Positions 11,992-64,000 of a stretch of DNA of 64,000 nt are shown here, in pieces. The position numbers were made by a program, and so were the translations under genes. The notes under the pieces were generated by a model. It saw nothing but the letters and a program-made list of their open reading frames with translations. It was not told the origin of the DNA and did not search any database. The DNA comes from Dolomedes plantarius (taxonomy: Eukaryota; Arthropoda; Arachnida; Araneae; Dolomedidae): positions 165,878,441 to 165,942,440 of the forward strand of contig OU015496.1 of NCBI GenBank assembly GCA_907164885.2. The letters are read 5' to 3'. The first letter of the stretch is position 1; each line of letters opens with the position of its first letter.

Positions 11992-12243
11992 TATTCATGA
12001 GACCCATCTTTTTACATAAGATTAGTGTCTCACAAATTTAGAAACAGACATAATGAGTTATGCCAAACCTTGGAACTACTTATGGTTATAAGTATCTTTA
12101 TGATTCTTTGCCAATAATACTACAAAGGTATATCAATTTTACCACTACAATTTTAGAAAGAAGTATTTTTTATGGCTCTGTTAAGGCAAGTTAATAATTT
12201 TATAAGAAAGAGTCTTTGTAATCCTCTATAGTGCAAAATTATA

Positions 12244-14301: not shown

Positions 14302-14328
14302 TATTTGCAGGCAGTTTTCTTTTCTATG

Positions 14329-15207: not shown

Positions 15208-15230
15208 GTACTCCCCCCCCCCCCAAGTAT
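15208..15230 (-). promoter_or_regulatory. Polypurine tract of the gypsy element
   Basis: On the minus strand a run of about twelve G followed by AGTAC lies directly upstream of the 3' LTR. This is where the plus-strand primer of a gypsy element is expected. Confidence 0.75.
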
Positions 15231-15246
15231 CGAAGGTACTGAGGAG

Positions 15247-16277
15247 TTAAAGGTAGCGTCGATTGAAACGCACGACTCTACCAGATCGAGTCCTTGTTGA
15301 AGTAGCGGGTCTTGGAGTCTGCAATTCGACCGGTTTAACATCTGTAGGAGATTCCGTCGGCAGACCTGTTGTCGTGGGCATTGGAGGGGTAGAGGTTGAA
15401 TCAGCTATATGAAACGCTGGCTTTAGTCGATCGACGCTCACAACTGATTCTTTACCATTTACTGATAGAGTGAGGTGTTTCTCAGTTCTTTTCAGAACTT
15501 TGAAGGGTCCATCATAAGGAGGCGTGAGAGGTGCTCGTAGGGCATCTCTGCGGAGGAAAACATGCGATGCATCTTGTAACGCCGGATGCACGAAACAGTT
15601 GGGAGATCCATGATGCGTTGTTTGTTTCGGCGAAAGTTTGAGCATCGTTTCCCTCAAATAATGGAGGAAAGTCGTCGGATCATCGTTCGAAGTAGTAGTA
15701 GTGGTTTGAAAGAATTCTGCTGGCAATCTCAGCGTTGTGCCGTAAACCAATTCGGCACAGGTTGCATCTAGGTCCTCTTTGAAGGACGCACGAAGACCGA
15801 GCAGAAGGATTGGGAGAACTTCTGTCCATCGCCGATTTTTTTGATCCAGCATTTGACTGGTCAACGCCTGCTTGAGCGATCGATGGAAGCGTTCTACAAG
15901 TCCGTTTGCACAAGGATGGTATGGAGTGCTACGGATCCGTTTAATGCCAAGGAGTGACATAAGCGATGTGAATAGTCGTGACTCAAACTGTCTTCCTTGA
16001 TCCGTAGTAATGATGGATGGTACACCGAATCTTGCGATCCAGTTTGCGACGAGTGCACGGGCAACTGTCTCTGCAGACATGTCTTGTAATGGTATGGCTT
16101 CAGGCCATCTCGTGAACCTGTCTACACACGTGAGTAGGTAATTAAAACCTTCCGATGGCGGAAGAGGTCCCACGAGATCAATTTGTACATGGTCAAATCG
16201 TCGTGATGGAAGTGAGAAGGCTTGAGGTGCACTACGAGTATGCCGAAGGACTTTAGAGCGCTGACAGCTTGTACAGC
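15247..16277 (-). pseudogene. Gypsy integrase (C-terminal part of pol)
   Basis: The frame starts in the zinc-binding domain (CTSCQRSK, the two cysteines), then VQIDLVGPLPP with the first catalytic Asp, ITTDQGRQFESRLF with the second Asp, and NGLVERFHRSLKQAL with the Glu, so the catalytic triad is intact. A C-terminal domain with PPYDGPFKVLKR and SVNGKESVVSVD follows, and then a basic tail. The stop at 15247 lies just before the polypurine tract. The protein is cut off from the rest of pol by the mariner-type insertion at 16280-17387, which falls just before the cysteines. Confidence 0.93.
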
Positions 16278-16279
16278 TA

Positions 16280-17387
16280 CTGTCCGACCACGGAAGCAAG
16301 GTCCCTGGAAGCTGTTACGCATGCGCGAGAATAGCTAGTCTACTTAGAAAATAGGGGAAAACGTCATATTATCGGATGTGTTTGTTTATGAAATACGGAA
16401 TGTATTTCAGACTGCTTTTTGTCAGCAATTTTTAAAACTTTATTTTTGATCGAATATGTGAATAATAATTTCAAAATAATAAAAAGAAAGAAGCAAATCT
16501 ATTTAAAAAATAGGAGTGGATATTTTCGGGTGTGTTTGTTTAAGAACTGCGAAAGAACGTTTTCAACCAACTTTCTTTTTCAGAATTTTTCTTTTGATTG
16601 AATGTATAAATAAAAACCGAAAAACAGATTAAAATGAAGGTTTGAAAAATTCCATTTTTAAGTAATATATTGTAATAACATAAATATATATATAATACAA
16701 TAAAAATAATATATTTGATTCGCAGTTTTACAATTTGCAGAAATAATTAGGATATACAACTCAAAATTTTCAATCTTTTGAATTTTTCTCAAAGTTTCTC
16801 TTTGATGAGTAAAATTGATTTTTTCTCTTAAGACTGGAATTAGTTTACGAATTGTTGGTACTATTTTACAGAAAGCATAAAATTCATGAATTGTTCTTCG
16901 AATTACATCACAATCAAAATTATCTAAAGCTACGTTTTCGGTAGTTCTTTTTTTCTGACGTTTCCTCGGAGATTCAAATTTTGGAGTTTCTTCACACTTT
17001 GCTTCTCTGCGTATTCTTTTTACACTGGACATTGATATCCCGGTCATTTCACTAGCTCTCTTTAGGGATTGCGAAAGTGGAACAATAACATTTCCTTCTA
17101 GTGCTTCTTTATCACACAATTTAATTACATTGTGTTTTATACGTTTACAATCACTACGGAACGGCTTATTCCGAGCAGTTGTGTTGGGTAAAGGATCCAT
17201 TAATTTCAATATAATAATAAAAAAACAGACGAGGCAAAAGCAAGCAAGCACAGTTAGTAACCGATTCTAAAGAATGTCGAGAGAATACGAGACTTTTCCC
17301 CTCCTTCCTCAGCAGCCTTACCTACAGCATGAATAGAATAGTCTTGGCACTATGCCAACCGTGGTTCTTCGTACTGTGGTCGGACAG
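16280..17387 (-). mobile_element. Mariner/Tc1-superfamily element inserted in gypsy pol
   Basis: The terminal repeats are CTGTCCGACCAC at both ends, with TA at 16278-16279 and 17388-17389. Removing the 1108 bp and one TA restores continuous reading between the gypsy KWTR and CTSCQ segments, which proves the borders. It carries the N-terminal part of a transposase on the minus strand. The rest is AT-rich and without coding, so the catalytic part seems deleted. Confidence 0.9.
16658..17200 (-). pseudogene. N-terminal half of a Tc1/mariner-like transposase
   Basis: The start is placed at the internal ATG (17198-17200) giving MDPLPNTTARNKPFRSD, since the upstream residues are hydrophobic and unlike a transposase. 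It has a basic helix-turn-helix-like segment (SEMTGISMSSVKRIRREAK), a basic linker (SPRKRQKKRT), and CDVIRRTIHEFYAFCKIVPT followed by a LIPVLREKINF-type segment. This resembles the N-terminal region of DDE transposases seen in many arthropod genomes. No aspartate-bearing catalytic domain follows, so it can bind DNA at most. Confidence 0.65.
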
Positions 17388-17389
17388 TA

Positions 17390-18500
17390 CGTGTCCACTT
17401 TGCAATGTCTGTGAGCATAGACGGCCAAACAAATCGTTCCTGCACTAGTTGCTTCGTCGCACGAATGAATGGGTGTGATAAGTTATGGAGAGACTTAAAC
17501 ACATCATGACATAATTTGTCGGGAACGTACGGGCGAATTCTGTTGTTACTGGTGTCACAATAGATTTCTGCGGAAGTGATTTTTAAGAGTTTTAGTTGAA
17601 GAGAAGTTACTGTATTGTTCAAAACAGACTCTAGTTCGATGTCATTCTTCTGCTGTTTGGCAATAGTGACGAAATCAATTGTAACTGAAGTAGATACTTC
17701 GTTTATTCGAGAGAGAGTATCTGCTATGACGTTATCAGCTCCCGAGACATGTTGAATGTCTGTGCTGAATTGGGCAATGTAATCAAGATGTCGCGTTTGA
17801 CGTGGGGAACACGATTCAGAGTGTTTCCTGAACGCGAAAGTTAGAGGTTTATGATCAGTGAAGATTGTAAAACACCGACCTTCAAGGTTATGTTTAAAAT
17901 GTTTTATCACGGAGTAAATTGCTAACAACTCTCTATCATAGGTGCTGTATTTCTGTTCAGCGGGGCATAGTTTTCTTGAGAAAAATGCGAGAGGCATGGG
18001 GCCTTTTTTTGTTTGTGAGTGTAGAACCGCTCCAATGGCGATATTGGAGGCGTCTACCATCACAGAAAGGCGAGAGTTAGGCGAATGGTAATGTAACGTT
18101 ACTGGGCTAGCCAAACTTTGTTTACATTGCTCGAAAACGTTATTAGTGACAACATTCCTGGGAACTGGGCGCTTGTCGTTCTTTTTTGACTCAATTAAGA
18201 ACGCATGTAGTGTAGCTTGAGTTTTCGCTGCATTTGGGAGAAAACGACGGTAGAAATTTAGTAGAGCCAAGAAACGTCTGAGTTCCGAGATTGTGGTTGG
18301 TTTTGGAAACTCTTAAAATTGCTGAAATCTTCTCGGGCAGAGGTTTAAAGCCTTCGGCGGTTATGAGACATCCGAGGAATTTAACTGATGTTTTTCCAAG
18401 GACGCACTTAGATGGGTTTAATTTAAGACCATGCTGTGAAAGGCGTGTGAAGACTTGTTGTAGGTGAGTTCTGTGATCTGCTTCGTTGGCGGAAGCGATA
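17390..18500 (-). pseudogene. Gypsy reverse transcriptase thumb and RNase H
   Basis: Upstream on the minus strand is the segment after the catalytic box: ASANEADHRTHLQQVFTRL, LNPSKCVLGKTSVKFLGCL, then MALLNFYRRFLPNAAKTQA. RNase H follows: SVMVDASNIAIGAVLHS (Asp), STYDRELLAIYSVIKHFK (Glu), FTIFTDHKPLTFAFRK (Asp), then the integrase zinc-domain histidine region (LHNLSHPFIRATKQLV). A frameshift lies near 18260-18310. It joins directly to 24375 and above once the composite insertion is removed. Confidence 0.9.
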
Positions 18501-20384
18501 AACTCTAAACTCCACATCAGCCCCCCACGCTTTTGCGTATCAGCAAGAGAAAAATAACAGGTCGCGCCATAACAATCCCGCCAGAACTAAGTCCGGAGGA
18601 CGAGCGCAATGACTAATTTGCCACCAAGTCGGAATTAAACAAAATTAAAAGTTAAACCTCACAAAAAGGGGATAGCAACGGGAAAAATAAAAGAGGGTAG
18701 AAAGGCGTCCCCGGTACCACTGCAGTTCCGTCCGACTTTTCTTTTTTTTTTCTCTTTTTCTCTCTCTTTTCTTTTTTACTGTAAAGATCAGTAATTAAAA
18801 TACAAATACATTCATATTTTCAGAGAATACATAGGTGATCCCCGACTATTAGAAATACATGACAATTCGGTTTGAATTGAGTAAAAACAAGAACAAAAAA
18901 TAACCACGGCCCAGAGAGCCTGAAGTAGAGAAAATGTTGAATTACATGAATTAAAAGTTACAAAGCACGAATTACAAATTGTTACAAGCTACAGTTTACA
19001 GATTACACTAAATTATATATTCCAAATTACAATAACAAATTTTACAAATAAGTCAACTACATCGGTTGATTCCTAGCGCATTAGTAGTACATATAAGACG
19101 ACACCCAGGAAATCCACAATTCACTTACAGTTACAATATTAAGTGTAATAGTAATTTCATATAAATACTAACAATGCATTAATAATCAACACATTAACCA
19201 TATATTAATTAAACAATACAATAAATACAGCACAAAGTACTCAACGGACTACGTAGACCATAAACTAGAATTCAATACATTTTAACCATAATCTTAGACA
19301 TTAGCCATTAATTGCTAAAAACCATAATGCATTGCAGAAACGAAAAGAAAAACAAGCTTTTCAATTCAATTAAAGATTTTTTTTATTGTTACCACAATAA
19401 TTATTTAAACAAATAGTTTTTGATAAATTAGCGCACTTTAGCACTTTACAATAATGGAATTCCTTTAATTCACCATTCAGATACGAACCCGGAACCTCAC
19501 AACCCGAACCACAGAAAGTCAAGCCTTTAACCAGTGAAATTTAGAAAAGCACCCCAAACTTTTAATACGTAAATTTTTGCTATGTAATAAAACAATAATT
19601 ACCCAGACCATATATTTGGTATGCATGAAAATGGAAAAAAAATAATAATTTTTCCTTTCCAAAATACACAGACAAAACAAACAATTTTAGGTACCAGTTC
19701 AATTAATATAAGCAAGCAACAAATCCTAGCTCAGAGATAGGAGCCAGCCGGCAGATAATGTAACTGTTGACATATAAACCAGCACCGTGAATCCAGAGAT
19801 TCAGAGTACCCGTGTTGAGCTCCAACCCAAGTCTACCAACCTCAAGCCAGCGGTAAGTAACTTTATTACCAATAAGTTAATTGAATTGTATAAAAACCTC
19901 AAAATGTGTTAAAAGGTAACGCGTAAATTAGCTAGTACAAGGGAATTATCCAGTTATTAGCCACATAAGCTTGAAGCCCACACAAATATGGCGGCCTCCA
20001 TACCAACTAAAAGTAAACAAAGTAAACGTAAACAAAAGTAAGCAACCCGAAATTGTTAATAAAAATTTAAATAACACTAATAGTTTGTACATGTTTAAAT
20101 TTATTCTTTCCCTATAACAACAAAGCCGTAGAAGAGACTACCAAAACAAATTTCACTTTAACTCAACAGAGTAAAAAACCAAGTAATGCGAAAAGCAAGA
20201 AGTTAGTCGACTATGAGGTCTAAGTACACTGGAAGCCTAAAACAAGATGTCGAAGTCCATTGCTTTCAACAGCTACGCCCTAAAAAAGTTAAAACCCAAC
20301 ATAATTTTTTAACATTCATACTTCTTAGTATAAATGGATACATTAAAAGCGAATACATAACCCCGTAGCTAAAAAGCTATTAGT
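18501..20384. other. AT-rich non-coding part of the composite insertion
   Basis: No coding frame. A pyrimidine-rich run (about 18735-18778) and a C-rich run at 18521-18526 are present, along with short A/C-rich repeats. It is probably the 3' untranslated part of the LINE, or one more unrecognised insertion. Confidence 0.35.
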
Positions 20385-20392
20385 GAAGCCCA

Positions 20393-20955
20393 CAGGGCCC
20401 GACTTTGACCCAATGGGGCCCTGGGCAAAGCAGACTTTGGGGCCCCCCCGAAGGACAGATCCACAGGGGGGGGGGGGCACATGCTCCCCTCCCCACAGGA
20501 CCAGATTTCCACATGAACATGTGGGACACTCACCCAGGTCCTCCATAAATTGGGACTGGATATTCAAAAAAAATTCGACCAAGTCAAAAATTTGAAGAAA
20601 AATAAATAATAAGTGTTAATTTATTAATTTACTTTTTAATGTTAATAAATAAATTAATGAAATTTTCTCTTGAAATTCAAAATAGATCACAGTCTGAAGT
20701 CATTACCCCCCCCCAAAAAAAAAAAGAATAAATAAATAAAATAAACGTTTACGGATGTAACTATGCTTTCACTATAGTGAGTGCACTGTACCCCCACCCA
20801 GGATTTTTTTCTGTATCTGCCACTGCCCCCATTTACTGTATTAACCAAAAACCAAATTTTCAGAAATATGTACAACTTAATACTTAATTAGTGGCCCCAT
20901 AATTTTGGGGGCCCTGGGCAAGTGCCCCTCTTGCCCATGCGGAAATCTGGGCCTG
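20393..20955. mobile_element. hAT-type MITE with perfect 8-bp target duplication
   Basis: GAAGCCCA flanks both sides (20385-20392 and 20956-20963). The ends are CAGGGCCCGACTTTGACCC and, inverted, CAGGCCCAGATTTCCGC; both continue to a shared CCCAGGGCCCC or CCCTGGGCAA-type box. GC-rich ends and an AT-rich middle with runs of G and C are typical of small hAT derivatives. No coding. Confidence 0.88.
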
Positions 20956-21032
20956 GAAGCCCATAATAAGCATGGGAGGTTTAAACAACAATAACCAGGT
21001 ACAATTAATGTTTTAATTTAACGCTAAATATA

Positions 21033-22450
21033 GAGTGGACGCTCGTTAATTCGAACTCGGTTAATTCGAACTTTCGGTTAATTCGAACTAATCCAAAGGC
21101 CCCAAAAAACTTGTATTGGAGTTAATGTTAAAAATATCTCATTAATTCGAACTAAATTTTTATCACTTCGGTTAATTCGAACTAAAAATTTGACAAAAAA
21201 AATTCTTTTTCCTCGTTTAATGGAGAAAATACACACTGTATTTATTATTTTGTGTGTCAAAATTTCTTTTCTGTGTAAAGAGGCACATGCCTGCATTCCT
21301 AGACTATTGCATTTCCGCTAAACGTTAGTAGTTATTGTCCTTCTTTTTAGTGCTAAAAGGAAAAAGCAATTTTCCTTTATTTGGATCGATTTTCTTAGAA
21401 TTTCAGAAAAACTAGCCTTTACTACAGATTCTAGGGAGCTGCGTCACTTATAACTGCAGTGCAGACAAGTTAATGTGGTCTAGTTTTTCTTCCTCATTCT
21501 GGGGTGTGAACGTGTAAAAATCCAGGATGTCTACACGTGGAAAGTACAAAACCCTAACTTTGGAGACAAAGGTAGAAATTTTAAAGAAAGTAGAGAATGG
21601 CGAATGTAAAACAAAGTTAGCAGCTAAGTATGGAATTTTAAAAAATGCCTTGTCAACTAATTTGAAAAACAAGGAGTCAATTTTAGATTCATGGGAAAAA
21701 TCAAAATTTGCTAGAGGAAGGAAACGCATGGGAAATGCGTCCCAAGAAGTTCTAGAAAATGCTCTACTGCTATGTTTCCAGGATGTTAGATCTCGAAATT
21801 TTCCGATAAATGGACCCCTAGTGCTGACGAAGGCTGATGAATTGGCAATTCGAATGGGTATTGAAGATTTTGAATGCAGTGATGGATGGCTTTCTCGATT
21901 TAAGTCAAGGCACAATATTTCTTATCAAACTGTATGTGGCCAAAGCTCTGATGTAAACGAAGACGTATGCACTAATTTCGGTAGGAAACTGACAGGGCTT
22001 TTCTCTACTTACCTGCCGAAAGATATTTTTAATGCGGCCATAATGGACTCTATTAAAACTCTGAAAGCATTTATTCAGATGGAACCTTCCTCTGAAAATG
22101 AATTGAAATGTTTACTTCAAATCGAGAAGCTGGCTGAACAATGTAGGCATCATAAACAGAACCAAAAATACATTTTACAGTTTTTCCCCAAAGTGTAATT
22201 CATATTTTTAATAAAAGTTTACTTTATACTGCATATATTCTGCTTTATTTTATGACTAAGGTAAGTCTGTATTGCTTTTTAATATGTTTAACTTTAGATA
22301 ACATAGTTTAATATATTTTATGGGGTTATACATACTAGGAGAGTTTCTTCTTCAGTGATACACATTTAAAGTTATATGTTTTCTCTTAACATCGGATAAT
22401 TCGAACTTTTTTCTGAGAACCTTTGAGTTCGAATTAACGAGCGTCCACTG
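21033..22450 (+). mobile_element. Tigger/pogo-type transposon with internal catalytic deletion
   Basis: The inverted ends are GAGTGGACGCTCGTTAATTC and CAGTGGACGCTCGTTAATTC, flanked by TA (21031-21032, 22451-22452). The left end carries repeated copies of TTAATTCGAACT at 21046-21181, likely transposase-binding sites; the right end has similar units. A plus-strand ORF (21527-22198) lies inside. The total of 1.4 kb is shorter than autonomous relatives because the catalytic core is missing. Confidence 0.92.
21527..22198 (+). CDS. Tigger-derived DNA-binding protein without DDE domain
   Basis: This open frame of 223 codons starts MSTRGKYKTLTLETKVEIL. Residues 1-60 form the first CENP-B/pogo helix-turn-helix (KLAAKYGILKNALST), and residues 65-150 the second (NGPLVLTKADELAIRMG and CSDGWLSRFKSRHNISYQ). 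At about residue 155-170 it reaches LFSTYLPKDIFNA, where the family continues with the catalytic Asp. Here it jumps in frame to a C-terminal segment (SENELKCLLQIEKLAEQC) and stops at 22196-22198. The DDE core is absent but no stop or frameshift is present. It is either a recently deleted copy or a product that binds the element's ends without cutting. Confidence 0.85.
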   Translation: MSTRGKYKTLTLETKVEILKKVENGECKTKLAAKYGILKNALSTNLKNKESILDSWEKSKFARGRKRMGNASQEVLENALLLCFQDVRSRNFPINGPLVLTKADELAIRMGIEDFECSDGWLSRFKSRHNISYQTVCGQSSDVNEDVCTNFGRKLTGLFSTYLPKDIFNAAIMDSIKTLKAFIQMEPSSENELKCLLQIEKLAEQCRHHKQNQKYILQFFPKV

Positions 22451-22452
22451 TA

Positions 22453-22513
<61 letters not shown>
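22451..22513. repeat. (TA)n microsatellite at the Tigger end
   Basis: About 60 bp of nearly pure TA directly follow the right Tigger border, so the transposon sits in a TA-rich target. Confidence 0.9.
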
Positions 22514-22515
<2 letters not shown>

Positions 22516-22849
22516 AAGGCTTATTAACAGTTTATTATAACAATTTCAGGTATGAATCAGTTAAATATTAGAAGCATATTCAGAATGGAGCAAGAGAGCC
22601 CAAGTAAATAACCGAATTGTTATAAACAAATTATTAAAATAAATAATTAAGTAATTATTTACTCGATTAATTTACATTTTAATTAATTATTAATATTAAT
22701 TACGAATTAATTTGAATTCATAAGATACAGCCATTATAAAACCCATATAAACATTGAGATTGACTGCATAAATTAAAAATTTTATATTTAGTAGTTATAC
22801 ATAGCAGTAATTACAAATTTTATAGTTTTTTTTTAAATTTCATTTTTTA

Positions 22850-23125
22850 AAGTAAGCAAGATTTAGAGAAATTAAGTGAGCATGTACATAGAGAATAATT
22901 TAATTGTAAACTAAATAATTTTATCTTTCCCTCTCCCTTAGCACCTACGAAATTGTTTTTTGAAGTTCCTGCAATACGGTCCCAAGTCTTCACCGCCATC
23001 ACAAAATTCATATGTTGACACCACCGGGAAACGAACTGACAACCACACCTGTTCCAAACAGATGTAGGTTTCAGTCGGTAGGGTCCTACATTCCCAGAAG
23101 TAGGACCGTACCGCTGGGCCATGCT
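22850..23125 (-). mobile_element. Possible tRNA-derived SINE
   Basis: On the minus strand TGGCCCAGCGGTACGG (23106-23121) resembles an RNA polymerase III A box, and GTTCGTTTCCC (23026-23036) a B box, about 70 bp apart. That is wider than in most tRNAs, so it is not a tRNA gene. A body of about 170 bp follows. A second copy is not in the window, so this is tentative. Confidence 0.4.
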
Positions 23126-23594
23126 TCTTATACTTCACAGTGCCAATGAAGATTTAAAGAAGGAGAACATGACGAAGATACTCAAAATACCAGAAAAACA
23201 TTACATTAGCAAAGCCTAGTGAACTGTAGAATATATAGGTTGTTTAAGAATAGTTTTTTTTTAAGGAATCGTAGCCACACAGAGGTGCCAAGAGAAAAAA
23301 AAAACCTAGGTAAGTAGATAGTTCTTAATATTGAACAGAGCAAAAACCAATAAAAACCGCTATAATAACTATTAAATTCAGAGTGGCCTTATTTACTACG
23401 AGAACACAAACAGACAGTACGACAAAACAAATACACAAAGAGACGGAAAAATCCCAACAGCAGCGCAAAGAACCGGCCACCCGCCTCAAGACGAAGCCGT
23501 AGGAGGGGAAAGAAAATGAATCTGAAGTAAGTCTGACATAACAAAACAAATAAATTTTTTAACAATAATAATCAGAAAAGATTTTAAGTTTAGG

Positions 23595-24330
23595 TCAGTT
23601 AGCAAAATCATTGGGTAAATTGTTTCTATAGACAGTCAACAAAGGACACTCAAATAAACAATGATCCGGAGTTTGTGTCTCTTGGCATTGACAAACATCA
23701 CTCTTTCCATGAAATCTTGCTTGGTAGCTACCGAATGAACCGTGTCCTGTTATAGCTTGGTTTATGTAGAAGTTAGCACATAATCTATGTATGTTGACAT
23801 CGTGATAAATTTCCCTAACTCTTCTGTGTTTATTGCTATTGTCCCATTTCTCTTGCCATTCCTTAATTTCTTCCATATTTAGTAAGGTCTTGATTTTCTT
23901 TTTAGTCCACTTATGAAAGCAGCTTATTTCCGTTAGTTCGGTAGCCTCCTCATTCTCGATAATTCCCACATGGGCCTTAACCTAGTGGAAATAGATTTGT
24001 ATATTATTATTTTTTATCTGCTTTTTTATGGCACTAACTATTTCACCTTTTTCGTTGAGAGATTTTAGAGCTTCCAGGGCACTCCTTGAGTCAGTATAAA
24101 TATCACTCCGTTCAATATTATTGTTGATCATATATTTAATTGCAAGTTGAATAGCTCTGAGTTCTGCTAAGTAAGAGTTGGATCTACCCAATCTTTCTCT
24201 TATTTTTTCTTTGATGGTTTCATTTTCATAAATTACAACTCCTGCAGCCGTCATGTTATCTTTTTTTTGAACCGTCTGTGTAGATCCTTATATTAGTTTT
24301 ATTCTTTAAGTCGAGACTCCAGTCATAACT
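23595..24330 (-). pseudogene. LINE RNase H and C-terminal fragment, 5' truncated
   Basis: On the minus strand: RIYTDGSK with the first Asp at about 24280, a frameshift, AGVVIYENE, SYLAELRAIQLAIKY with the Glu, DIYTDSRSALEAL with the next Asp, then VKAHVGIIENEEATEL. After it comes a tail with CQCQETQTPDHCLFECPLL, the cysteine-histidine motif seen in RNase H LINEs. The endonuclease and reverse transcriptase are absent because the insertion is cut at 24374. It resembles the tail of the LINE at 1.8-5.9 kb in domain order but not closely in sequence. Confidence 0.8.
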
Positions 24331-24374
24331 TACTAATTCTTCAAGATTTTGTATGCTTCTTTCCCTGGTTCCCT

Positions 24375-25210
24375 GGAAGCGATAAGGATATCGTCAAAAT
24401 AGGGGCCACAGAATTCGAGACCAGATAAAACTTGGTGGATGAAGCGCTGGAGCGTTTGACCAGCGTTTCGCAAACCAAATGGCAAATACACATATTCAAA
24501 CAAACCGAAAGGGGTTGTAACGACAGTTTTTTGGATATCCTGAGGCTGGACAGGGATTTGGTGGTAGGCACGAGCCAAATCGAGAGTCGAGAAAATTGAT
24601 TTACCGAAAAACATTTGGGTGCAATCCTGTATATGCGGTACAGGGTACCTATCAGGAATAGTTATAGCATTTAGCCTGCGATAGTCGCCACATGGGCGCC
24701 AATCACCATTGGCCTTTTTGGCCATATGTAATGAGCTGGCCCATGGGCTCTTAGAAGGGCGGATGCCCTCAGACAATAAGAATTCGAATTCCCGCCGAGC
24801 AGCTTGCAGTAATACCGGGGATAAGCGCCGGGTTTCGAAAAAACGGGAGGTCCGGTTGTCTCGATGTGGTGCAAATTGGCGAAATTATTGGGTTTTGGAG
24901 GATTAGTGAGATCGGGGAATTGGCGGAGTATTTTGTAAAATTCGGTGTTTCCTAATAAAATGGATAGGTTAGGTGGTACGGCACTTATGGAAGTAGGTTG
25001 TCCTTGGATGATAATTTTGTGACGGCATCGATGAGGCAGTTGTTTTTAGCATCAACCAAGAGATTGAAATGCGTCAAGAAATCTATTCCGATGATCGGTT
25101 GGCTTACACTTGCAATTACGAATGACCAAGTGAAAGGACGGCGTAAATTGAAATTCAAAGTTAAACGTTTGGTACCGTAAGTCGGAATTTTTGTGCCGTT
25201 TGCGGCGAAA
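24375..25210 (-). pseudogene. Gypsy reverse transcriptase core and end of protease
   Basis: The end of the protease reads AANGTKIPTYGTKR, SVSQPIIGIDFLTHF and LLVDAKNN. The reverse transcriptase follows: [48 protein letters not shown] (first Asp), [19 protein letters not shown], then YFDDILIAS with the Asp-Asp pair. The linker between protease and RT has frameshifts. The frame is broken by the composite insertion exactly after the YFDD box and continues at 18500. Confidence 0.9.
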
Positions 25211-25218
25211 AGTACTAA

Positions 25219-26355
25219 GGGAGAAGTCCCATATCCTGTGCCGGAAAATTTGGCGATTTTTTTGGGGCGATAAACATTTCAATATGGTGTATTTTTAACT
25301 GTGGCTTTCTTGTTTGGTATTTTTTAAATGGGGCTTTCTTGTTTGTGTTTGTTGACGAAATACCTAGAAAATGATCGAGATGGTCCCGATTGAGAAAATT
25401 TGTAGTATTTTTAAAAAATTATGTTTAATACACTGGTTTTAACTTTTATAAAATTGTAAATAATTATGAGATCTTACGAAATTTTATCATATAATACATT
25501 CTTACCGTGGATTTTGTTTGAAATTTTATCATTTTTATTTTAGTTTTATTTCTTTTATTTGAAAAATTTGAACTTTTTGTAATTTTAATCTTTTTTATTT
25601 TAATTCACATAATTTTTTTCAGTCAGATGGCACTATAACTACTTTTTAAACCATTACTTTTTGACACTAATGTGATTATTTAAATGAATTAGGTAGTTCT
25701 TATTGGAAAAATTCGTAATTTTCTTTTGGAAATTAATTGCATTTTTGGGGGATCTCTCTCTCTTTTTTTTTTTTTTTTTTTTTTTTTAAATGGCATATCC
25801 AAAAAGACTACCCAAAGTCCCTTCTACAGTTATTATTTCTTCAAACAGTGGCTTTCTGGTAAGTTATAAAATTCATTTTGTTTCTATTTGTTCTGTTTTA
25901 AGCCTAAGTGACGCTAAAAAGATGGCGTCGATTAGATAGGTTGCACGATATCGATTAACTTTAATTTCATTACACTCAGGAGGTACTTATGTACATATGA
26001 CAAAAATAAATTAATGTTATATACATAATTATTTTAGAGCTAGAGTCGTTTTTGTAAAAATTTGCTAAATTTCAACTTAAATTCATAAATTTTCTTAAAA
26101 ATCGCATAGTCATGGTCTATTTTTTCCTTGTTTTGGTGTTATACCCCTTCGAAAAATAAGAAAGAAATTGACGCAAGTATGGTTTTCTTTTCAAAAAGTG
26201 CTCCATAGGTACAGTCAGATTCCTTAATCCTAAGTGACGCCGAAAAAATGGCGTCGCTTAGGTAGGTTGCATTATTCCGAGTTTTCCGCCAAACTCAGAA
26301 AACTCAGAAACCGCGCCAAATAGCGCCAAGCGGCACAGGATACGGAACTCTTCCC
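25219..26355. mobile_element. DNA element with 8-bp target duplication in the gypsy protease
   Basis: AGTACTAA is present at 25211-25218 and 26356-26363. The inverted ends GGGAGAAGTCCCATATCC and GGGAAGAGTTCCGTATCC, both followed by TGTGCCG, match at 21 of 25 positions, all differences being transitions. Removing the element and one duplication joins the protease segments NLVL and FAANG. The 1137-bp body has long T runs and two related hairpin motifs (25900-25950 and 26229-26273), but no transposase. The 8-bp duplication suggests hAT or P type; the ends do not decide it. Confidence 0.85.
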
Positions 26356-26363
26356 AGTACTAA

Positions 26364-27316
26364 ATTGTCTGGAGACTGATCATTAAAGGCAAAAGGTTTT
26401 GGAATGACAGAAATGTCAGCTCTGGTGTCGATTAAGAATTTTGTTTTTGAGTTTTTGTCGGCCAGAGTCAATCTAGAGATTTGCGGGCGGTCGCGAAGTT
26501 GGCCGTCTGGCGATCGCCGATTTAGTTTTCCAGCCGTCTAAAGGAGCAGGGAGAAGAGCATTTTCGTGCTTTTTTGCCGAAGTTTGTATGGTAAAAATAC
26601 AAGTTGTTGGCAGGTTCCTAAAGTTGGCGGCAACGTCCGCGGGACTGACTACGTCGCCTGTCATGCCTAATATAATTATCTCGCCCGCGAGGACGTTGGC
26701 GATTTTTTACAATGGTGTTGAGCTCGTTAAATTGCTTAGTTAAAAGTAGCATTTGTTGCTCCAGATAAGAGTTTGGCTGCGTGGATGCGCTATTAATTGT
26801 CGTTGGCGTGGCCTGGTCATTAATTTTATCGGCCGCAACCGCGAGTTTTTTTAAGTCATCGCTGAGAGCGGCAAGAATACTTTGAGTTGATTGGGGAAGC
26901 CTTGAGAGCCACAAAGATTTTAAAAGAGGTTACCCGACGTTTTCACCTGCGAGAACTTTGATCTGGGAAAGTAACTGCGACGGGCGTTGGTCACCTAGCT
27001 CCAGACCCTGAAGGAGTGTGCGAAATTTAGATTCCTCGCTCTGTGAGTGAACGGCGATTAAACGAGCTTTTAAAGTATCATACTGGTTTTCGCGGGTGGC
27101 GCACTAAGGATGTCAGATACAGAATTGAATAATTCAGGTTCGATAGCAGTCATAACATAATGAAATTTCGTGCTATCGACCGATATGTTAGCTAATGCGA
27201 ACTGGGACTCTTAAACGCGCGAACCATAAGGTGGGATTTGCTTTCCAGAACGGTGCTGGTTTAACCGTGACACGCGAGATATGGTTGCTTGAGGTGTCTG
27301 CGTTCGGATTTGCCAT
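26364..27316 (-). pseudogene. Gypsy gag and start of protease
   Basis: The ATG at 27314-27316 starts MANPNADTSSN; PAPFWKANPTLWFARL and, after a frameshift, FALANI follow, the usual N-terminal gag pattern of arthropod gypsy elements. Further on are WLSRLPQSTQSILAAL, a Lys/Arg-rich region, and then the protease site FLIDTRADISVIP, where the usual Asp-Thr-Gly is Asp-Thr-Arg. A stop near 26927 and frameshifts break gag. With the Gly to Arg change the protease would probably be inactive. Confidence 0.85.
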
Positions 27317-27685
27317 TTTAAAAATACAGTTTTATACTACACATTCAAAGGAGTTTGTATACAATATACAAAACACATGAATACGATATTTGGCAAAAAA
27401 TTGTAGAATGGCTATGAGAATAAAAATACATATAACGCTTATGCGAAAAGAAAATATGATACAAAAAAATTTCCGATATGCGCGATATGTATACTGGAAT
27501 AACAATGAATACGTGCATTAAATATGGAAAATACTAATTACGTATGCGCTAGATGCGCAATTAAGAACTTAATATGCGGAGTAAAAATAATTACTGAAGT
27601 AAGACATCTTGATTACGGATATTGCCCATATTACTACACATACATAAAATAAGCTCGTATTGAAAATAGCAAATATATACTTTTT

Positions 27686-27705
27686 CCACGACCAGGAGTC
27701 ACCAA
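27686..27705 (-). promoter_or_regulatory. Candidate primer-binding site of the gypsy element
   Basis: Immediately inside the 5' LTR the minus strand reads TTGGTGACTCCTGGTCGTGG. The position fits a tRNA primer-binding site, and TGGTGAC starts are common in gypsy elements. The tRNA partner was not determined. Confidence 0.6.
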
Positions 27706-28007
27706 TATGGAGTCAGAGCTCCATTTACCGGATCAGAAGGTTTCGATTACTAAGCCGCTTCAATTATCTTCAAGACTGCTGTTAAAAAAAAGGAATGCGA
27801 CAGGAAGTGCAAACTTGAATTTAACAAATATATAAAACGCAACAACAGGATCATCTTAAAAAATGGTAGAACAACTCAAGTTGTTAAATTTATAATAAGA
27901 ACAAATAATTCCCAATTCACGTGCAAGTGAAATCACATTTGTAATTAAAACTGCTGCTTTGAAAAGTTCATTCACCATGGAGGAAATGTCAGGTGATGAT
28001 CGCTACA
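27706..28007 (-). repeat. 5' LTR of the gypsy element
   Basis: The intact 302-bp LTR has the same ends as the copy at 14329-15207 and about 97 percent identity by eye. This suggests a fairly recent insertion, older than the elements nested in it. Confidence 0.92.
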
Positions 28008-35797: not shown

Positions 35798-36604
35798 TCA
35801 ACAACCAGAAACTACATTTAATCGTTTGACTTTCCTTGATGATTGTCGAGTTGCAGCCACTTCTGCTATGACTACACAATCATCGTCGCTTTGAGAAGCA
35901 ATAGCTTTCTTTCGCTTATAGGAACGTGTTGTTGGCCGATGAGGCACACTTTTTGTGATGCGACCTTTATCCCACTCCAGATTCTCTTGGAGGGGCTTGG
36001 TCACATCAGGAAGAGTCGATAAATAATCTGTGACACGCTCTTCTGAGTAGTCAAACACAGAATGCTTGTCTTTGGAGGTGTTAACTTTATGGGCACACCC
36101 ATCTTTCTCTGAAGAAGAAAAACATGAGTAGGAAGTCCTGCTCGATGAGATATCACTGCTGAGAGAAGAACTACTACCAGCATCAGTGGAACTTTGTTTT
36201 TGTTTGCGACGCTGAGCCAAAGGTGCAGCAGAAACATCCTGTAGCCGGAAACCATCCCGAGTTGCTTTGTGGAATGCATGGAGGGTAACATTTAAAGCAG
36301 TTTCAGCAGCACGGGGAGATGACAGGGAACAGAGGACATCAGGTGTCATCAGAGGTGTACTAGAATAGGTACTATGGTGAGACCTCTGCAGCCATGGATG
36401 ATGACGCAGCTGATGCATTGTGAGTCGCTCATGAGAATTCACTGTCAGAAGTCCTTGTATCACTTCCTTGGCTTCTACTGACACAATATCCCACTGGGGT
36501 CCACAGAAGGTGAACTCACCCTCCTTAATTCGTTGCATAATGACAGCAGCACTAGCTTCTCGACTGTAAGTTTGGAAAGGTGTTTTACCAGACAACATGG
36601 TATA
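35798..36604 (-). CDS. RPS6KA5: MSK last exon: end of the C-terminal kinase and nuclear tail
   Basis: It reads YTMLSGKTPFQTYSRE, IKEGEFTFCG, VIQGLLTVNSHERLTMHQL and the kinase end, then LMTPDVL, whose Thr-Pro matches Thr700 of human MSK1. The tail has LAQRRKQKQS, the counterpart of the basic nuclear-localisation and MAPK-docking segment, then a serine-rich stretch, and finally DDDCVVIAEV and a basic SSRKVKRLN end. The stop TGA is at 35798-35800. The tail is clearly longer than in human MSK1. Acceptor CTCTTTTAG. Confidence 0.95.
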   Translation of the reverse strand, partial: YTMLSGKTPFQTYSREASAAVIMQRIKEGEFTFCGPQWDIVSVEAKEVIQGLLTVNSHERLTMHQLRHHPWLQRSHHSTYSSTPLMTPDVLCSLSSPRAAETALNVTLHAFHKATRDGFRLQDVSAAPLAQRRKQKQSSTDAGSSSSLSSDISSSRTSYSCFSSSEKDGCAHKVNTSKDKHSVFDYSEERVTDYLSTLPDVTKPLQENLEWDKGRITKSVPHRPTTRSYKRKKAIASQSDDDCVVIAEVAATRQSSRKVKRLNVVSGC

Positions 36605-54557: not shown

Positions 54558-54673
54558 CTGATGTAAATGTTCCAAGGCTAAAATTATTTCTCCCACATAT
54601 ATCCGCACTTCATCTTCAGTGAAGTGATCCCGCTGGTAGAGATGAGTAAATAGTTCACCACCACTTACATAAT
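54558..54673 (-). CDS. RPS6KA5: MSK exon: hinge of the N-terminal kinase
   Basis: It reads DYVSGGELFTHLYQRDHF, then VGEIILALEHLHQ, which is the hinge and helix E of the first kinase. Acceptor TTTTGTTAG and donor GTAACT. The upstream intron (54674-60307) holds the Tc1 element and the large inverted repeat. Confidence 0.95.
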
Positions 54674-55428
54674 CTAACAAAATAAAATCATGACCACCTT
54701 AAGTTAACAAATGACAAAAAACAAGTCAATTTACAACAAATTATGAAAAAAGTTCACTTAATTCAAAAATTAAGATTAGACATAAATAATAAAATTTGGA
54801 GAATGCATGTTTATGATTGGTTGGTTGAGAGAGATACCATCAATTTTTGCTATACAATGGCTAATTTCCTGTTTATAAGAGTCTTTTACAAATTCATTTA
54901 TTTCCAGTTTAAATGCATCTTTCTTTAGTAAAGAATCCAAGAGGGGTAATACCTTATCTGCATCTGTGTGTTTCAAACAGGCTTTGAAAAGTGAATTTAT
55001 CTTGATAAACTTAATACATAAAAATTCACTAATTTCAACTTATTAACCACACACTCATTATTATCCAGCAAAACCAACTAAAGGTCTGTTAATTATCAAA
55101 AATTTTACTTCTAAACCTTTCTTAGAATTTTCATTCAAAGTATCTGTTGATGGTTGAGTTTTCAGCTGAATTAAACACAATTTGTTTATCTCCAGGTAAC
55201 AAATACTTCATATATTTAAATCTGCCAGAACACTTTTCGTTTTGTTATAATGTACCACACAGCATATACAGAAGTTCATCTTCCTTAAATTTTATCTTTA
55301 GTGTCACCAACAAATCTTATTTAAAAAAAACTGTCTTGCCATTTTTATTGATAAAAGATAGTCTTTTGATAGATAACTTGCAAGCCTAATATGCAGTCAC
55401 AAAAAACATTAAATAATTAAACCTAATA

Positions 55429-56926
55429 CACTCATGTCCATAAATTAAGGATAATGACAGCTCCGGCAAATAAAGGTTCAGAAACAAAACAAACATGACT
55501 TATTCATAAAGTCCATTTATTAAACAAAAGATAAAGAACAAAAAAGATTGTGTATGTATGATACCACTCATAAAAACTGTGATTTTTGCTCCCTGGAGCA
55601 ATTGTAAAAAATATCTCCTTTAGAAAAACTTATTACATGGTTGGTATGATGGTTAATACATTGTATGCCTCCCATGTGATAAAATACAGTCCGTACAATG
55701 CCTAGGCACGCTGAGTATCAAATTATCAAGCTGATCTTGGGGAAGATAACTCCATTTAGCAAGCAATGCTCTCCCAAGTTCCGGTACACATGTACGAGGT
55801 GGTTGACGGGTTGCAACTCTTCGCCCAAACATATCCGACACTTGCTCTATCAGATTCAAGTCAGGAGAGAATGCTGGCCATTCCATACGGGTGATATCCT
55901 CAGATTGAAGGCATTTGTTTACGATATTTGCTCGGTGAGGATGGGCATTGTCATTCATAAACACAAATTCTGCGCCCATGGCTCCCCTAAACAAACATAC
56001 ATGTTGTTCCAGAATGATGTCCTGATAAATGTGGCCGTTCATGGTTCCGATTTGCGCATGCAGATCTGTTCTGGAGCCCAGTATAATTCCACCCCAAATG
56101 AGAAATCCTGCACCACCGTAACAGTGTCGTTCAATGATGTTGTTTTGATGATAACGGGTACCTGGCGTTCTCCATATGAAAGTTTGACGTGAATCAGACT
56201 GCAAGCTAAACATGGACTCGTTGGAAAACATCACACAAGCCCACTGTGTCGATGTCCACAATGCATGTTCTCTACTCCAGGCAAATCGCTGCCGACAGTG
56301 AGTTGCCATGAGCGGAACACACATGACAGGCCTGCGAGCATATAGACCAATATTTCCAAAACATCTGTACACGGTTTGCCTTGAAACTGTGGTACCCGTG
56401 GCTGCAGATAGCTGATGAGACAGGTCGTATGTGTTCCGTCTGCTTCTTTTGACAGTTACTGCCAAATACCGGTCTTCATTCGGCATTGTTACAATACAGG
56501 TAGCCCCCAAGTTACATTTACTGACATTTCCATCATCTTGGAATCCTTGCCAAAGCCTAGAGATGACACTTTGGGCAATTCCAAGTTCCTCGGATACTTC
56601 CATCTGAGAACACCCACATTCCAGGCGGCAGATAATTCTACCAAGTAAAAAATCATCCACATGCATCCTCTGTGTCATACCTATTCGGTTATGGCACTGA
56701 GCGGCTTGCAGAATGCTTGTGAACAATTTTACTTCTTTGCCACCATTCCTTATATACCCCTCTCTTACACTCTCGTCATTGTGATGTACTATCGGCGTCA
56801 TCTGGTGGCCTCCTGAAATTTGTATATTATTCTTGAAGATGTGTGATAATTCTGCAGGTGAAAATTTTACTTTAGAGTTCGATTTCTGCGTGATTCTGAA
56901 TTATCCTTAATTTATGAACATGAGTG
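55429..56926 (-). mobile_element. Tc1-like DNA transposon, almost intact
   Basis: The inverted ends CACTCATGTCCATAAATTAA and CACTCATGTTCATAAATTAA continue with GGATAAT, so 26 of 27 bp match. TA lies on both sides (55427-55428 and 56927-56928). The 1498-bp body has one uninterrupted transposase frame. It is the best preserved transposon in the window. Confidence 0.95.
55653..56801 (-). CDS. Tc1 transposase, full-length frame with first catalytic Asp changed to Asn
   Basis: The frame gives 382 residues; family members are usually about 340, so the true start may be the Met of MHVDDFLLGRIICRLECGC. It has a helix-turn-helix (SQMEVSEELGIAQSVISRLW), a second DNA-binding segment (LSAATGTTVSRQTVYRCF), then MFSNESMFSL where the family has Asp in place of Asn, GFLIWGGI, VFMNDNAHPHRAN with the second Asp, and SPDLNLIEQV with the Glu 34 residues later (DD34E). 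The Asn (AAC) removes the first metal ligand, so cutting should be lost, while DNA binding may remain. Confidence 0.93.
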   Translation of the reverse strand: MTPIVHHNDESVREGYIRNGGKEVKLFTSILQAAQCHNRIGMTQRMHVDDFLLGRIICRLECGCSQMEVSEELGIAQSVISRLWQGFQDDGNVSKCNLGATCIVTMPNEDRYLAVTVKRSRRNTYDLSHQLSAATGTTVSRQTVYRCFGNIGLYARRPVMCVPLMATHCRQRFAWSREHALWTSTQWACVMFSNESMFSLQSDSRQTFIWRTPGTRYHQNNIIERHCYGGAGFLIWGGIILGSRTDLHAQIGTMNGHIYQDIILEQHVCLFRGAMGAEFVFMNDNAHPHRANIVNKCLQSEDITRMEWPAFSPDLNLIEQVSDMFGRRVATRQPPRTCVPELGRALLAKWSYLPQDQLDNLILSVPRHCTDCILSHGRHTMY

Positions 56927-57300
56927 TACTTTAAAAAGTCTTTCAGAGCTGCTACATTATGTAAAAGTAAAAAATTCCAAGTAACCAAAATCTTTAAACC
57001 CTCTCCTATTCCCTCTCTTTACATATAGATACATAATTTTATAATGATTTAAGGAATTACATAACATTATCATACTCTTAATTTTTCACAGAATTACTCT
57101 GCAAAATATGATGGATTATGAAAGAGTTTTCCCTGAAATATAATCTTTAACCTTATTCCTTATGTACATTTTTTTTCACCATTATTTAAAAGAATCTATA
57201 CTTATGAAATACTGTTTAAAAAAAAAAAAAAAAGTAGGTGTCAGACCTTACATTAACTATAACATGTGTAAAATTTCTTGAGAGCAAATATGCCCCTCTC

Positions 57301-57306
<6 letters not shown>

Positions 57307-57357
<51 letters not shown>
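57307..57357. repeat. (TA)n microsatellite
   Basis: About 25 TA units in the MSK intron, uninterrupted. Confidence 0.95.
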
Positions 57358-57360
<3 letters not shown>

Positions 57361-58169
57361 ATATGTATGAAGCAGGACACTAATGTGGTACAAATAAAAA
57401 AGGTTTAAACAAAAAGGAAAAATTCAAAACTACTTTCAATAATTTATTTTAGAGCTCTAAACTTGATTAAGAATAGCCAATACATATTTATGCCTATTTT
57501 GTATATCTAGAGTAAATATATACATATCTCTAGGCATATATACAAAAATATATATGTATGTGTCTGAAAATTTCTAACAGTATATATAATCCAAAGAAAT
57601 TCTTCAGTGGTAGAAATGAGCAAAAGCATTTTCACCTAGAAAGTACTTCTATGGAAGAAGGATAACCTGCTGCAAGAAATGGGTTAAGGAAAGAAGTCAA
57701 GAGCGGATAAGCACATCAGACTCTTACATGTACTTCTAGGTCAGGGAGAAGGTCAAGAAACAAAAAGAAAGTAGAACAGAAGAAAGGTAGCAATTGAAAT
57801 GGGAAATATATGAAAAGGGATGGTTACAAAGAATTCAACTGAAAACTTGCTCAAAGTCAAGGTACTCATTTTAATTAAACTATAGGATTATTTTTTTTTC
57901 ATATTAAATAGATGAAAAGAATGTAAATGTTAGTTTAGAAAAATTAAAGACAAATTATTACTCTATAAAGAAAACTGACATGAAAAGATAGCTAAAGAAT
58001 ATTTACACTTTATTGAGTAGGTCATAGAATGTCAGTCACAAATATATGACCACTTGCAGAATAATAATAATAAATATTTAAGAGGTAATGGAATCTGCTG
58101 ATGGATACAGACAAAATTTAAAAGTAAACTTTAATATTTAAAAACTCTGAAAAGAAAGCCAACTCAAAG

Positions 58170-58686
58170 TTTAAATTACACTTAGATTTAAAAAATAATT
58201 TTTTTTTTAATTACAGAAATTTGACCATTTTAACCCATTATGTATTGTACAAAAAAAATAAAATTAATTTACAGTCAGTATTACAGCTGATTTTAATAAA
58301 TTTTGGTAGGAAAAAATAAAATGCACTAACCAAAAAATTTTACACAGACAGCATGTTTATAGATCATTATCTAAAAGAACTTTATAACAAAGCAGAAATT
58401 AAACATCTATCACAGGAAAAGAAAAAAAAATTCTCACAACAGTAATCATTAAGGTAATTTTATAATGACATAACTTCAACGGAATTTTTCAGATTTGATT
58501 GGCACTTTCAATAAATCGGCACTAAAGACTACTTTATTTTCTCAATGAAAGACTGAATTTTTATGCAAGATCAGTTTCACAAATCAAAATTAACTTAAAC
58601 TTTTATGGAAAGGGTAGGTATCATTATTTCTTAACCCTTTAAAACATTCAGTCTTTAATTATCTCATTCAAAATGTTATTTCAGTC

Positions 58687-58732
<46 letters not shown>

Positions 58733-58830
58733 GACTGAAATATATATATACACGTGTGTGTGTGTATGTATGTGTATATATATATATATACATACATACA
58801 CACACACACGTGTATATATATATTTCAGTC

Positions 58831-58882
<52 letters not shown>

Positions 58883-59397
58883 GACTGAAATAACATTTTG
58901 AATGAGATAATTAAAGACTGAATGTTTTAAAGGGTTAAGAAATAATGATACCTACCCTTTCCATAAAAGTTTAAGTTAATTTTGATTTGTGAAACTGATC
59001 TTGCATAAAAATTCAGTCTTTCATTGAGAAAATAAAGTAGTCTTTAGTGCCGATTTATTGAAAGTGCCAATCAAATCTGAAAAATTCCGTTGAAGTTATG
59101 TCATTATAAAATTACCTTAATGATTACTGTTGTGAGAATTTTTTTTTCTTTTCCTGTGATAGATGTTTAATTTCTGCTTTGTTATAAAGTTCTTTTAGAT
59201 AATGATCTATAAACATGCTGTCTGTGTAAAATTTTTTGGTTAGTGCATTTTATTTTTTCCTACCAAAATTTATTAAAATCAGCTGTAATACTGACTGTAA
59301 ATTAATTATATTTTTTTTGTACAATACAATCGGTTAAAATGGTCAAATTTCTGTAATTTAAAAAAAATTTATTTTTTAAATCTAAGTGTAATTTAAA
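58170..59397. repeat. 1.23-kb near-perfect inverted repeat in an MSK intron
   Basis: The arms of about 610 bp run 58170 to about 58782 and about 58785 to 59397. Reading outward from the centre (a short TA/TG tract near 58783) the two sides match base for base for about 480 bp. They differ by a few substitutions and small indels only in the outer 130 bp. Each arm contains its own smaller palindrome: a TA tract framed by TTTCAGTCTACT and its complement. There are no transposon-like ends, target duplication or coding. Confidence 0.93.
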
Positions 59398-60307
59398 CAC
59401 ACACACACACACACACATACATTTGTGATAGATATAACAAGGGATTTTCTTAAAACCACTAAATTTTTACTATTAAAAAGCAAACTAAATTATTTAATGA
59501 GTACAAAATAATAGAAAGTGCTGACAGGAACACAATTATATTAAATAAATCTGAATTCAAAACTATGAATTGAAAAAGTTTTACTTTCAATAACCAAACT
59601 TAAATCCAAAGTGTAAAATCATGTAAGTTTCAACTACTTCATATAGCTCATTTATTTTGCTTCACAGAGGAATAAAAGTACCTTTATTACAAATAAATAC
59701 AAGTAGGTTCTTAAATTCTACAATAGAAATAAATAGAAATTGACAACTAGTTTCAAACTAATAATTTTTAGTTCTTCATCAGAATCAAGCAAAGGAGCAT
59801 TAAATGCTGTTTTGTTGGTCATTTGTTTTGAACTTATAATTACAGTTCTTTACCAGGGTCGGAAGCTTTTGGCATGATTGACCCTCTATGAACAATAAAT
59901 GTGCATAAAAACAATGCCTAATACTCCCTACCAGACAAAACTAAAATATTAGTTTTAAATAAATATCTATACAGAAAATCATATCTAGTACACTCCCCTA
60001 CAATTGAGTTCTATAATTATTAGTTCAAAACTAGTTACCAATTAATATTTAATTTTAAGAAGCAGTATGTACCTAGCATCCTCCATTTTTGTGGTAATAT
60101 TTATTAAAGTTACTGTGTTCAGTTTATGCACAAATGAGTTAAAAAAAGTGAAGTAAAGAGATAACACATGCCTTTAATGCCAAAAATTCTTCAACAACAA
60201 AGTATGATTGGTTTCTCAATTATATCCACAGTACCATTAAAAAAAGTGAAAATAATTACAAAATGATAAAAATATATATAACAACAACACAAAGATAAAA
60301 TGCTCAC

Positions 60308-60526
60308 CAAGTATTAGATGAAGTTTTGAATCTGTCTGAAAAGCATAATGAAGAGTCACAAGAAAAGGAGATTGTCGAATAGCTTCTAAAACTTGTCTTT
60401 CAGTTTTAGCATGTTCAAGTGTTTTTTGTTTTTGAACAATGGAAGCTTTTTTCAACACCTTCATAGCATATAACTTCCCTCGGTCATTGCCTCGTAATTT
60501 TCGCACCAAAAACACTTTTCCATAAG
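60308..60526 (-). CDS. RPS6KA5: MSK exon: N-terminal kinase, N-lobe
   Basis: The exon opens in the second half of the glycine loop (AYGKVFLVRK) and carries LYAMKVLKK with the ATP-binding Lys, then TERQVLEAIRQSPFLV with the helix C Glu, and KLHLIL. The acceptor is TTTTTTTTAAG at 60527 and the donor is GTGAGC. It starts in mid-codon, so at least one exon lies upstream, which I did not find between here and 64000. Confidence 0.95.
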
Positions 60527-62837: not shown

Positions 62838-64000
62838 CAGAGGCTGTTCACATATTTTTTAGACGATGTATATTGTATTCACAAAATAAATTACATAAAA
62901 TTCTTGTGTTTTAAATGTTCTATTTGACATCCCTTATTCTGAACTATCTTTCGACACCGTAATTTCCAGGATAATAATGCCTTTTGAAGTGTCAGAAGAG
63001 GTATTCTATCCCATTCCTCCTGAACAGCTTTCCAGAGTCCTGTAAGGGTTTTGGGACGATGTTTGGATAATGCAGATTTTAAAAGTCCGAAAGCACAAAA
63101 ATCCATGGGTGATACATCGAAAGATTTAGTAGGGATATCAGTGAAGGGTATGGCCTTAATACCAGTTTTTTGTTCCATTTCTTTTAGGAAATTTACAGTG
63201 GATTTTGATGTGTGACTGCTAGCTTTGTCCTGAAGGAGTCTCACAGATTGAAGGCACTGTGGGTAAAGCGATGGTATTTCATTCAGAAAAATTGGCGATA
63301 AACTATGTTCCTGATAGTATTTGGAGTTAATTTTGACATTTTTTCCACTCTCTTTATTTTTAACTTGCCATTATAAGAAAAACCAGCAACAATCATGAAT
63401 CCCTTAGAAAAACTTTCTTTCGATTCTTTGAACCATGTACTTAAATTTTTTTCTCCCTTTTTATGATAATAAATGGCTCTTTTTTTGTTGCAATCATTTA
63501 ATTACACCCATGATTCATGTATTGTGACAATTGCTTTCCATTTTTCTTTGGATAAGTGTTTCTCATATAGAATTCTGCAGCGTGTCCTGCGTCCAGCGAT
63601 ATGATTTGGAAGAAGACGATGCACATTGCATTTTTTCGCTTTCTTAAGATTTAAATCAACGTTTATCATTTTGTTTACAGTGGACACCGAGCATTTTAAT
63701 GATTTTGCAACTGTCCTTTGACTAGGGGGATTTTCTTATAACATTAAACAACGTACCTTTGCAATAGTCGAAGATGTCCGTTTTTTCCTTGGATACTTGT
63801 TTGGAATTTTTGTCCCACTTGAGGCTCCAATTTGACGTTTTTTCCTTTCTTGTTGACGATATTACCTATCGACGCTTTAGATATCACAAAACCATGACTC
63901 TCACATCGTTTTTGGATAACGGAGTATGCATATTTCTCTTCGGAAAGAGCATAAATGTAGCCTTCGAACCACTGCTTTGTTAAAAACGCCATTTTGAATA
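62838..64000 (-). mobile_element. Mariner-type (DD41D-like) transposon, cut by the right window edge
   Basis: The left end CAGAGGCTGTTCACATATT follows TA (62836-62837). A decayed transposase on the minus strand fills 62891-63992. The other end lies beyond 64000. Confidence 0.75.
62891..63992 (-). pseudogene. Mariner-type transposase, several breaks, first catalytic Asp changed to His
   Basis: The start, MAFLTKQWFEGYIYALSEEK, and the next 80 residues include a helix-turn-helix. A break follows, then SVSTVNKMINVDLNLKKAKK and WKAIVTIHESWV, where relatives have Asp before Glu. Then YYHKKGEKN, another break, LLQDKASSHTSKSTVNFL with the second Asp, and SPMDFCAFGLLKSALSK with an Asp 42 positions on, so the spacing is 41 residues, as in the DD41D group. 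Stops and frameshifts make it non-functional. Confidence 0.82.

Follow-up and report, generated by a model that had tools for sequence, protein, structure and literature searches.

Among the closest described relatives of the palindrome analysed here are the human palindromic AT-rich repeats PATRR11 and PATRR22, which are composed of more than 90% AT according to the part of the source cited here (PMC4940405). Like our locus, they are near-perfect palindromes of hundreds of base pairs without a unique spacer, in which extrusion of a hairpin or a cruciform is to be expected. Size polymorphism and breakage at the centre are further marks of a PATRR. Fold-back inversions of yeast and great apes, as well as template-switch mutations, offer another comparison, as in these cases, too, adjacent sequence is copied in inverted orientation with priming by a short inverted repeat. 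In yeast, fold-back priming near inverted repeats was reported to produce inverted duplications, which, in the sections of that paper relied upon here, extend from the break as far as the end of the chromosome (PMC10622511); local fold-back insertions were given as 2 to about 150 bp in the cited part of another report (PMC11724301). Template switches of great apes were described as enriched in AT-rich DNA (PMC7954356, in the passages used here). From what the cited portions of two further papers state, template switching homogenises the arms of inverted repeats (PMC8604942) and extends the identity of quasi-palindromes, a process of quasi-palindrome correction (PMC3820800). The hpRNA loci of Drosophila, which share with our locus a long inverted repeat capable of forming a long dsRNA stem, are a known contrast case, since an hpRNA has a target gene, as the part of the source cited here indicates (PMC10292708). 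Judged by titles and opening lines of abstracts, none of the papers listed in our literature searches gives an account of the locus described below.

The palindrome lies in a window of 64,000 nucleotides (C6:165878441-165942440) of the 2.78-Gb, 390-contig assembly of Dolomedes plantarius; positions below are those of the window. Self-alignment of the whole structure placed the inverted arms at 58169-59398 (1230 bp, about 615 bp per arm, 97.9% identity), in agreement with the near-perfect palindrome of the preliminary description, whose limits of 58170-59397 are hereby corrected. Near-perfect symmetry over several hundred base pairs without a spacer is thus found here as in PATRR11 and PATRR22; the spider palindrome is unlike them in its 1230-bp extent and in its AT content, which is 77.2% over 58169-59398 (67% in the 4.2 kb leftward) and not above 90%. 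Measured from the outer ends to the (TA)n arrays, the arm stretches are 521 bp on the left and 519 bp on the right. They differ five times, by substitutions at 58199, 58208, 58236 and 58261 and by one 2-bp indel at about 58239. All five are located within the outermost 93 of the 521 bp (P = 1.8e-4, or 3.6e-4 two-sided, under uniform mutation), and the inner 428 bp are identical, with a 95% upper bound of 0.7% on their divergence. It had been proposed that differences are confined to the outskirts of the arms, which is true of a zone of 93 bp rather than of the 130 bp then given; identity at the centre with decay outward, and the reading of the structure as an inverted duplication, gain support from this distribution. 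A chance origin was rejected, as about 1e-234 perfect stems of 427 bp would be expected in 64 kb of independent bases.

The centre had been taken for a tiny TA/TG element, which proved wrong. It is a compound TA/TG/CA microsatellite of about 216 bp with two nested perfect (TA)n sub-palindromes (Table 1); these also repeat each other in direct orientation. The symmetry axis falls at about 58782-58785, within the central microsatellite, and the symmetry of the centre is imperfect, with (TA)20 opposed to (TA)23 and TGTGTATA to TGTATATA. The right arm ends exactly at an (AC)n tract, an observation made post hoc, and (CA/TG) tracts of at least 8 units make up 0.135% of the 200 kb of genome sampled (11 tracts); no such tract abuts the end of the left arm. 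The word TTCAGTCT(A/T)(C/T) occurs eight times in the window, always within 58548-59021 of the palindrome, with four copies per palindrome half and in both orientations (mean of 0.76 and at most 4 copies in shuffled sequences). A terminal 20-mer with one exact match in one viral contig (L001) was considered as a trace of viral origin and taken as a chance occurrence of an AT-rich word.

Table 1. Features of the intronic palindrome and of the exons that border its intron (positions within the window)
Feature	Position	Strand	Remarks
MSK exon, N-terminal kinase lobe	60308..60526	-	best PDB match RPS6KA5, 1vzo, E 4.6e-34
MSK/RPS6KA5 intron with palindrome	54674..60307	-	splice sites inferred by eye
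Next MSK exon (DYVSGGELF...ALEHLHQ)	54558..54673	-	starts at 54673 after TTAG acceptor, read by eye
Left arm	58169..58689	+	the five differences from the right arm all in outer 93 bp; no difference in inner 428 bp
First nested sub-palindrome, core TTTCAGTCTAC-(TA)20-GTAGACTGAAA	58677..58742	.	66 bp, 100%
Central compound microsatellite, TA / CACG(TG)n / TATG / (TA)8 / CATA / (CA)n CGTG	58743..58820	.	
Second nested sub-palindrome, core TTTCAGTCTAC-(TA)23-GTAGACTGAAA	58821..58892	.	72 bp, 100%
Right arm, reverse complement of left arm	58880..59398	-	
(AC)n tract	59399..59419	+	directly abuts right-arm end; proposed second switch point

The whole structure is contained in a 5634-bp intron of MSK/RPS6KA5, a gene on the minus strand, and this previously suggested placement is borne out by the MSK exons on either side. 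For the last MSK exon (35798-36604, minus strand) the best named relative is RPS6KA5 of Caerostris extrusa, a spider in the Araneidae, with 65% identity, and unnamed proteins match up to 97%. The same intron houses, at 55427-56928, a Tc1/mariner-like transposon that is bounded by inverted repeats of 29 bp (97%) and has a stop-to-stop frame of 415 aa with HTH_Tnp_Tc3_2 and DDE_3 domains. Three frames in 62891-63998, which lie upstream of the first MSK exon seen and which by eye we take to be mariner-like, had no Pfam match at E 0.001. In the window as a whole, neither tRNAs nor Rfam matches at gathering score were found.

Searching the genome with the left arm returned two candidates, the left arm itself and the right arm, and a query of 26 bases from the sub-palindrome core was found at four places, all in the palindrome (none for its reversed control); these copy numbers are lower bounds, as common words were skipped in the search. 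The left flank (773 bp) had one full-length place among 28 matches, the other 27 being short (72-82%), and the right flank (1103 bp) likewise had one, with 41 other short matches at 72-94% among the 40 of 46 candidates that were scored. Over both flanks, the short matches covered 33-130 query bases at 72-94%. No haplotig or empty allele was found, each flank having a single full-length place genome-wide. With the arm matching only the palindrome and each flank occurring once at full length, these copy numbers suggest that the arm is sequence native to the intron. As a positive control, one half of a symmetric locus from the sampled DNA, a dispersed repeat (L009:4145-4325), was searched for and had 2065 candidates; the 40 scored all reached at least 91%. 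With such a repeat readily detected, the restriction of the arm to the palindrome points to a locally made inverted duplication, and neither to a transposon nor to an hpRNA that matches a target.

To gauge how unusual such a structure is, the same chromosome was sampled at even intervals by 20 stretches of 10 kb (200 kb in all, of which 2507 N). Non-simple inverted arms of at least 200 bp and at least 95% identity within 300 bp of each other were absent from all 20, many simple TA palindromes being left out of this count; a sample of 200 kb bounds the density of such palindromes only below about 1 per 67 kb (95%). TA arrays of at least 10 units were frequent, numbering 45 in the same 200 kb. 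When 50 TA arrays were ranked for symmetric flanks, the two of the palindrome came 5th and 6th, and the top four owed their symmetry to extension through simple repeat. As TA arrays are common and yet long near-identical arms were present in none of the 20 stretches, TA alone is insufficient; this and the 5th and 6th ranks count against the fold-back origin proposed below. Weaker non-simple pairs in the sample included L017 (174 bp, 86%, spacer 200) and L016 (155 bp, 79%), and a sampled inverted repeat at L011:4890-5348 had 162-bp arms at 98% with a spacer of 135. Among 20 further loci (63.5 kb, pairs of at least 100 bp), pairs were found in the window palindrome itself (L040), in L028, in L033 and L035 (weaker and widely spaced) and in the TA-rich L045. 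The window also holds a weaker 224-bp palindrome (13963-14186, 78%), neighboured by an 88.8% inverted pair at 12241-12347 and 14201-14304. Segments 131 and 183 bp long at 14.3-15.2 kb recur at 27.7-28.0 kb with 95-97% identity; these repeats (14329-28007) enclose frames of an integrase and an RNase H (15247-18312), and the whole may be an LTR element that other insertions have disrupted.

We consider it probable that the palindrome is a single-copy inverted duplication formed locally, by fold-back or template-switch synthesis at a microsatellite. The arms appear to stem from adjacent native rather than dispersed sequence, and short inverted repeats are present at the presumed fold point in the form of the self-pairing TA/TG/CA centre and the nested (TA)n hairpins. 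In the scenario that we propose, the ancestral intron would have contained one arm followed by the compound TA/TG/CA microsatellite; this ancestral state, including which arm came first, is a guess. During replication or break repair, the TA tract would have let a nascent 3' end fold back on itself, and about 600 bp of the arm would then have been copied in reverse. A return switch could have brought synthesis back to the original sequence at the CA tract, today the neighbour of the right arm. A further fold-back, similar but smaller, might account for the nested (TA)n hairpins. Hairpin-templated correction, or conversion between the arms, would then have acted most strongly at the centre, so that the inner arms stayed identical and only the outer 93 bp drifted apart. 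The homogenisation of arms and the correction of quasi-palindromes described in the cited parts of PMC8604942 and PMC3820800 supply a ready reason for central identity with outward decay. The best explanation of the inner identity is that it reflects both youth and hairpin-templated correction, and the palindrome looks young, in its core at any rate, provided that conversion does not mask a greater age; the outer divergence could instead stem from two separate events. Scale also argues against fold-back synthesis, as an arm of about 615 bp far exceeds the 2 to about 150 bp of local insertions in yeast. Unlike the yeast duplications that reach the chromosome end, the spider palindrome is interstitial; both comparisons rely on the portions of the yeast reports cited above.

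The concentration of differences in the outer 93 bp next to an identical inner part would also be left by an older inverted repeat that lost its unique spacer and had its arms kept identical by gene conversion. Such a history is unlikely, as the central sub-palindromes and the TA/TG/CA tract look like a point of fold-back and no spacer remnant was seen between the arms. The perfect identity over 428 bp raises the question of a fold-back chimeric read, created during library preparation or assembly and built into the contig, particularly as palindromes longer than 200 bp are, in the part of the source cited here, hard to amplify and hard to keep in E. coli, which makes them error-prone loci (PMC4057610). 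A copy made from a single molecule is, however, not expected to carry five differences gathered at its outer edge, nor to have (TA)20 on one side and (TA)23 on the other. The nested structure of the centre is likewise at odds with it, and the contig, 210.7 Mb long around the locus, goes on into flanks that differ from each other, either of which was found at full length once; we therefore regard an artefact as quite improbable.

Shape alone would suit a single-copy transposable element of foldback or MITE-like type with long terminal inverted repeats, and a target-site duplication could be masked by the TTTAAA at the palindrome ends, as TTAA and TA are both part of it. The multiple dispersed copies that would mark a MITE or a foldback element were not found: the only two genome-wide candidates were the palindrome's own arms, even though the search reached matches of 72% over about 100 bases elsewhere. 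Beside 58169 and 59398 no clear target-site duplication was seen, with the reservation that the TTTAAA ends could conceal TA or TTAA, and the frames in the arm are short, at most 91 aa, the longest of them running through the TA repeat. This reading was rejected on copy number, with the dispersed repeat as the positive control, and we hold it to be very unlikely; the preliminary description, which saw no transposon ends, is supported in this respect. The control repeat itself deserved attention, as its locus contains a symmetric pair (419 bp, 74%, in the 200-kb sample) and, like the intron palindrome, has symmetric halves about a TA/CA microsatellite centre. As a MITE, L009:4151-4569 was discarded, since only one of the 12 copies fetched had a symmetric second half (L028, the query's own place). 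Copies of the repeat continue several hundred bases past the query, and all nine visible ends are short CA-, TCAC- or ATAC-rich tails, so that L009:3608-5121 is most simply two dispersed-repeat copies inserted with their tails facing each other across (CA)n(TA)n(TG)n. It is unlike the intron palindrome in that its arms are 69-77% alike, high-copy and provided with CA-rich tails, whereas the latter is single-copy with identical inner arms. As this locus is not a MITE, a palindromic MITE loses support as an explanation of the intron palindrome. A separate problem is the possibility of a functional intronic hairpin RNA, giving rise to Dicer siRNAs from the unspliced MSK transcript or subject to ADAR editing. 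The palindrome would be transcribed within MSK if the gene is expressed, and the very stable hairpin anticipated for the unspliced transcript was indeed predicted, as a near-continuous stem with an MFE of -931 kcal/mol for 1361 nt of the minus-strand transcript (a raw value, without shuffle control at that length). Unlike the Drosophila hpRNA loci, the arm has no long target match elsewhere: no third place was found in the genome in a search for long matches. Because the arm matches nothing else at this level, a classical hairpin-siRNA locus is disfavoured, and a functional hairpin RNA seems to us highly improbable. There is no sign so far of a function of the palindrome.

In the light of local inverted duplication at a microsatellite, which we favour, the palindrome is a striking example of an already known kind of unstable DNA. 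By analogy, it should work like PATRR, though it is off on AT content, and would not act as a gene but as a fragile sequence that forms cruciforms or hairpins. Provided that the structure is real, a long and nearly perfect palindrome has survived in this intron; in one human catalogue the longest palindrome was 618 bp under criteria of its own, which differ from ours and make this a loose comparison with the cited part of that work (PMC7680136). Loci of this kind are poorly handled by PCR- and clone-based methods, as the cited passages of PMC4057610 indicate. It is a doubtful but conceivable generalisation that TA/CA microsatellites serve as one-step fold-back points for near-perfect, kilobase-scale interstitial palindromes, the cores of which are then kept identical, and that they would thereby be a continuing source of fragile sites and of new intronic hairpin RNAs. 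The spider palindrome lends itself to a natural test of two ideas, namely that microsatellites seed inverted duplications and that hairpin-templated correction keeps the centres of palindromes identical.
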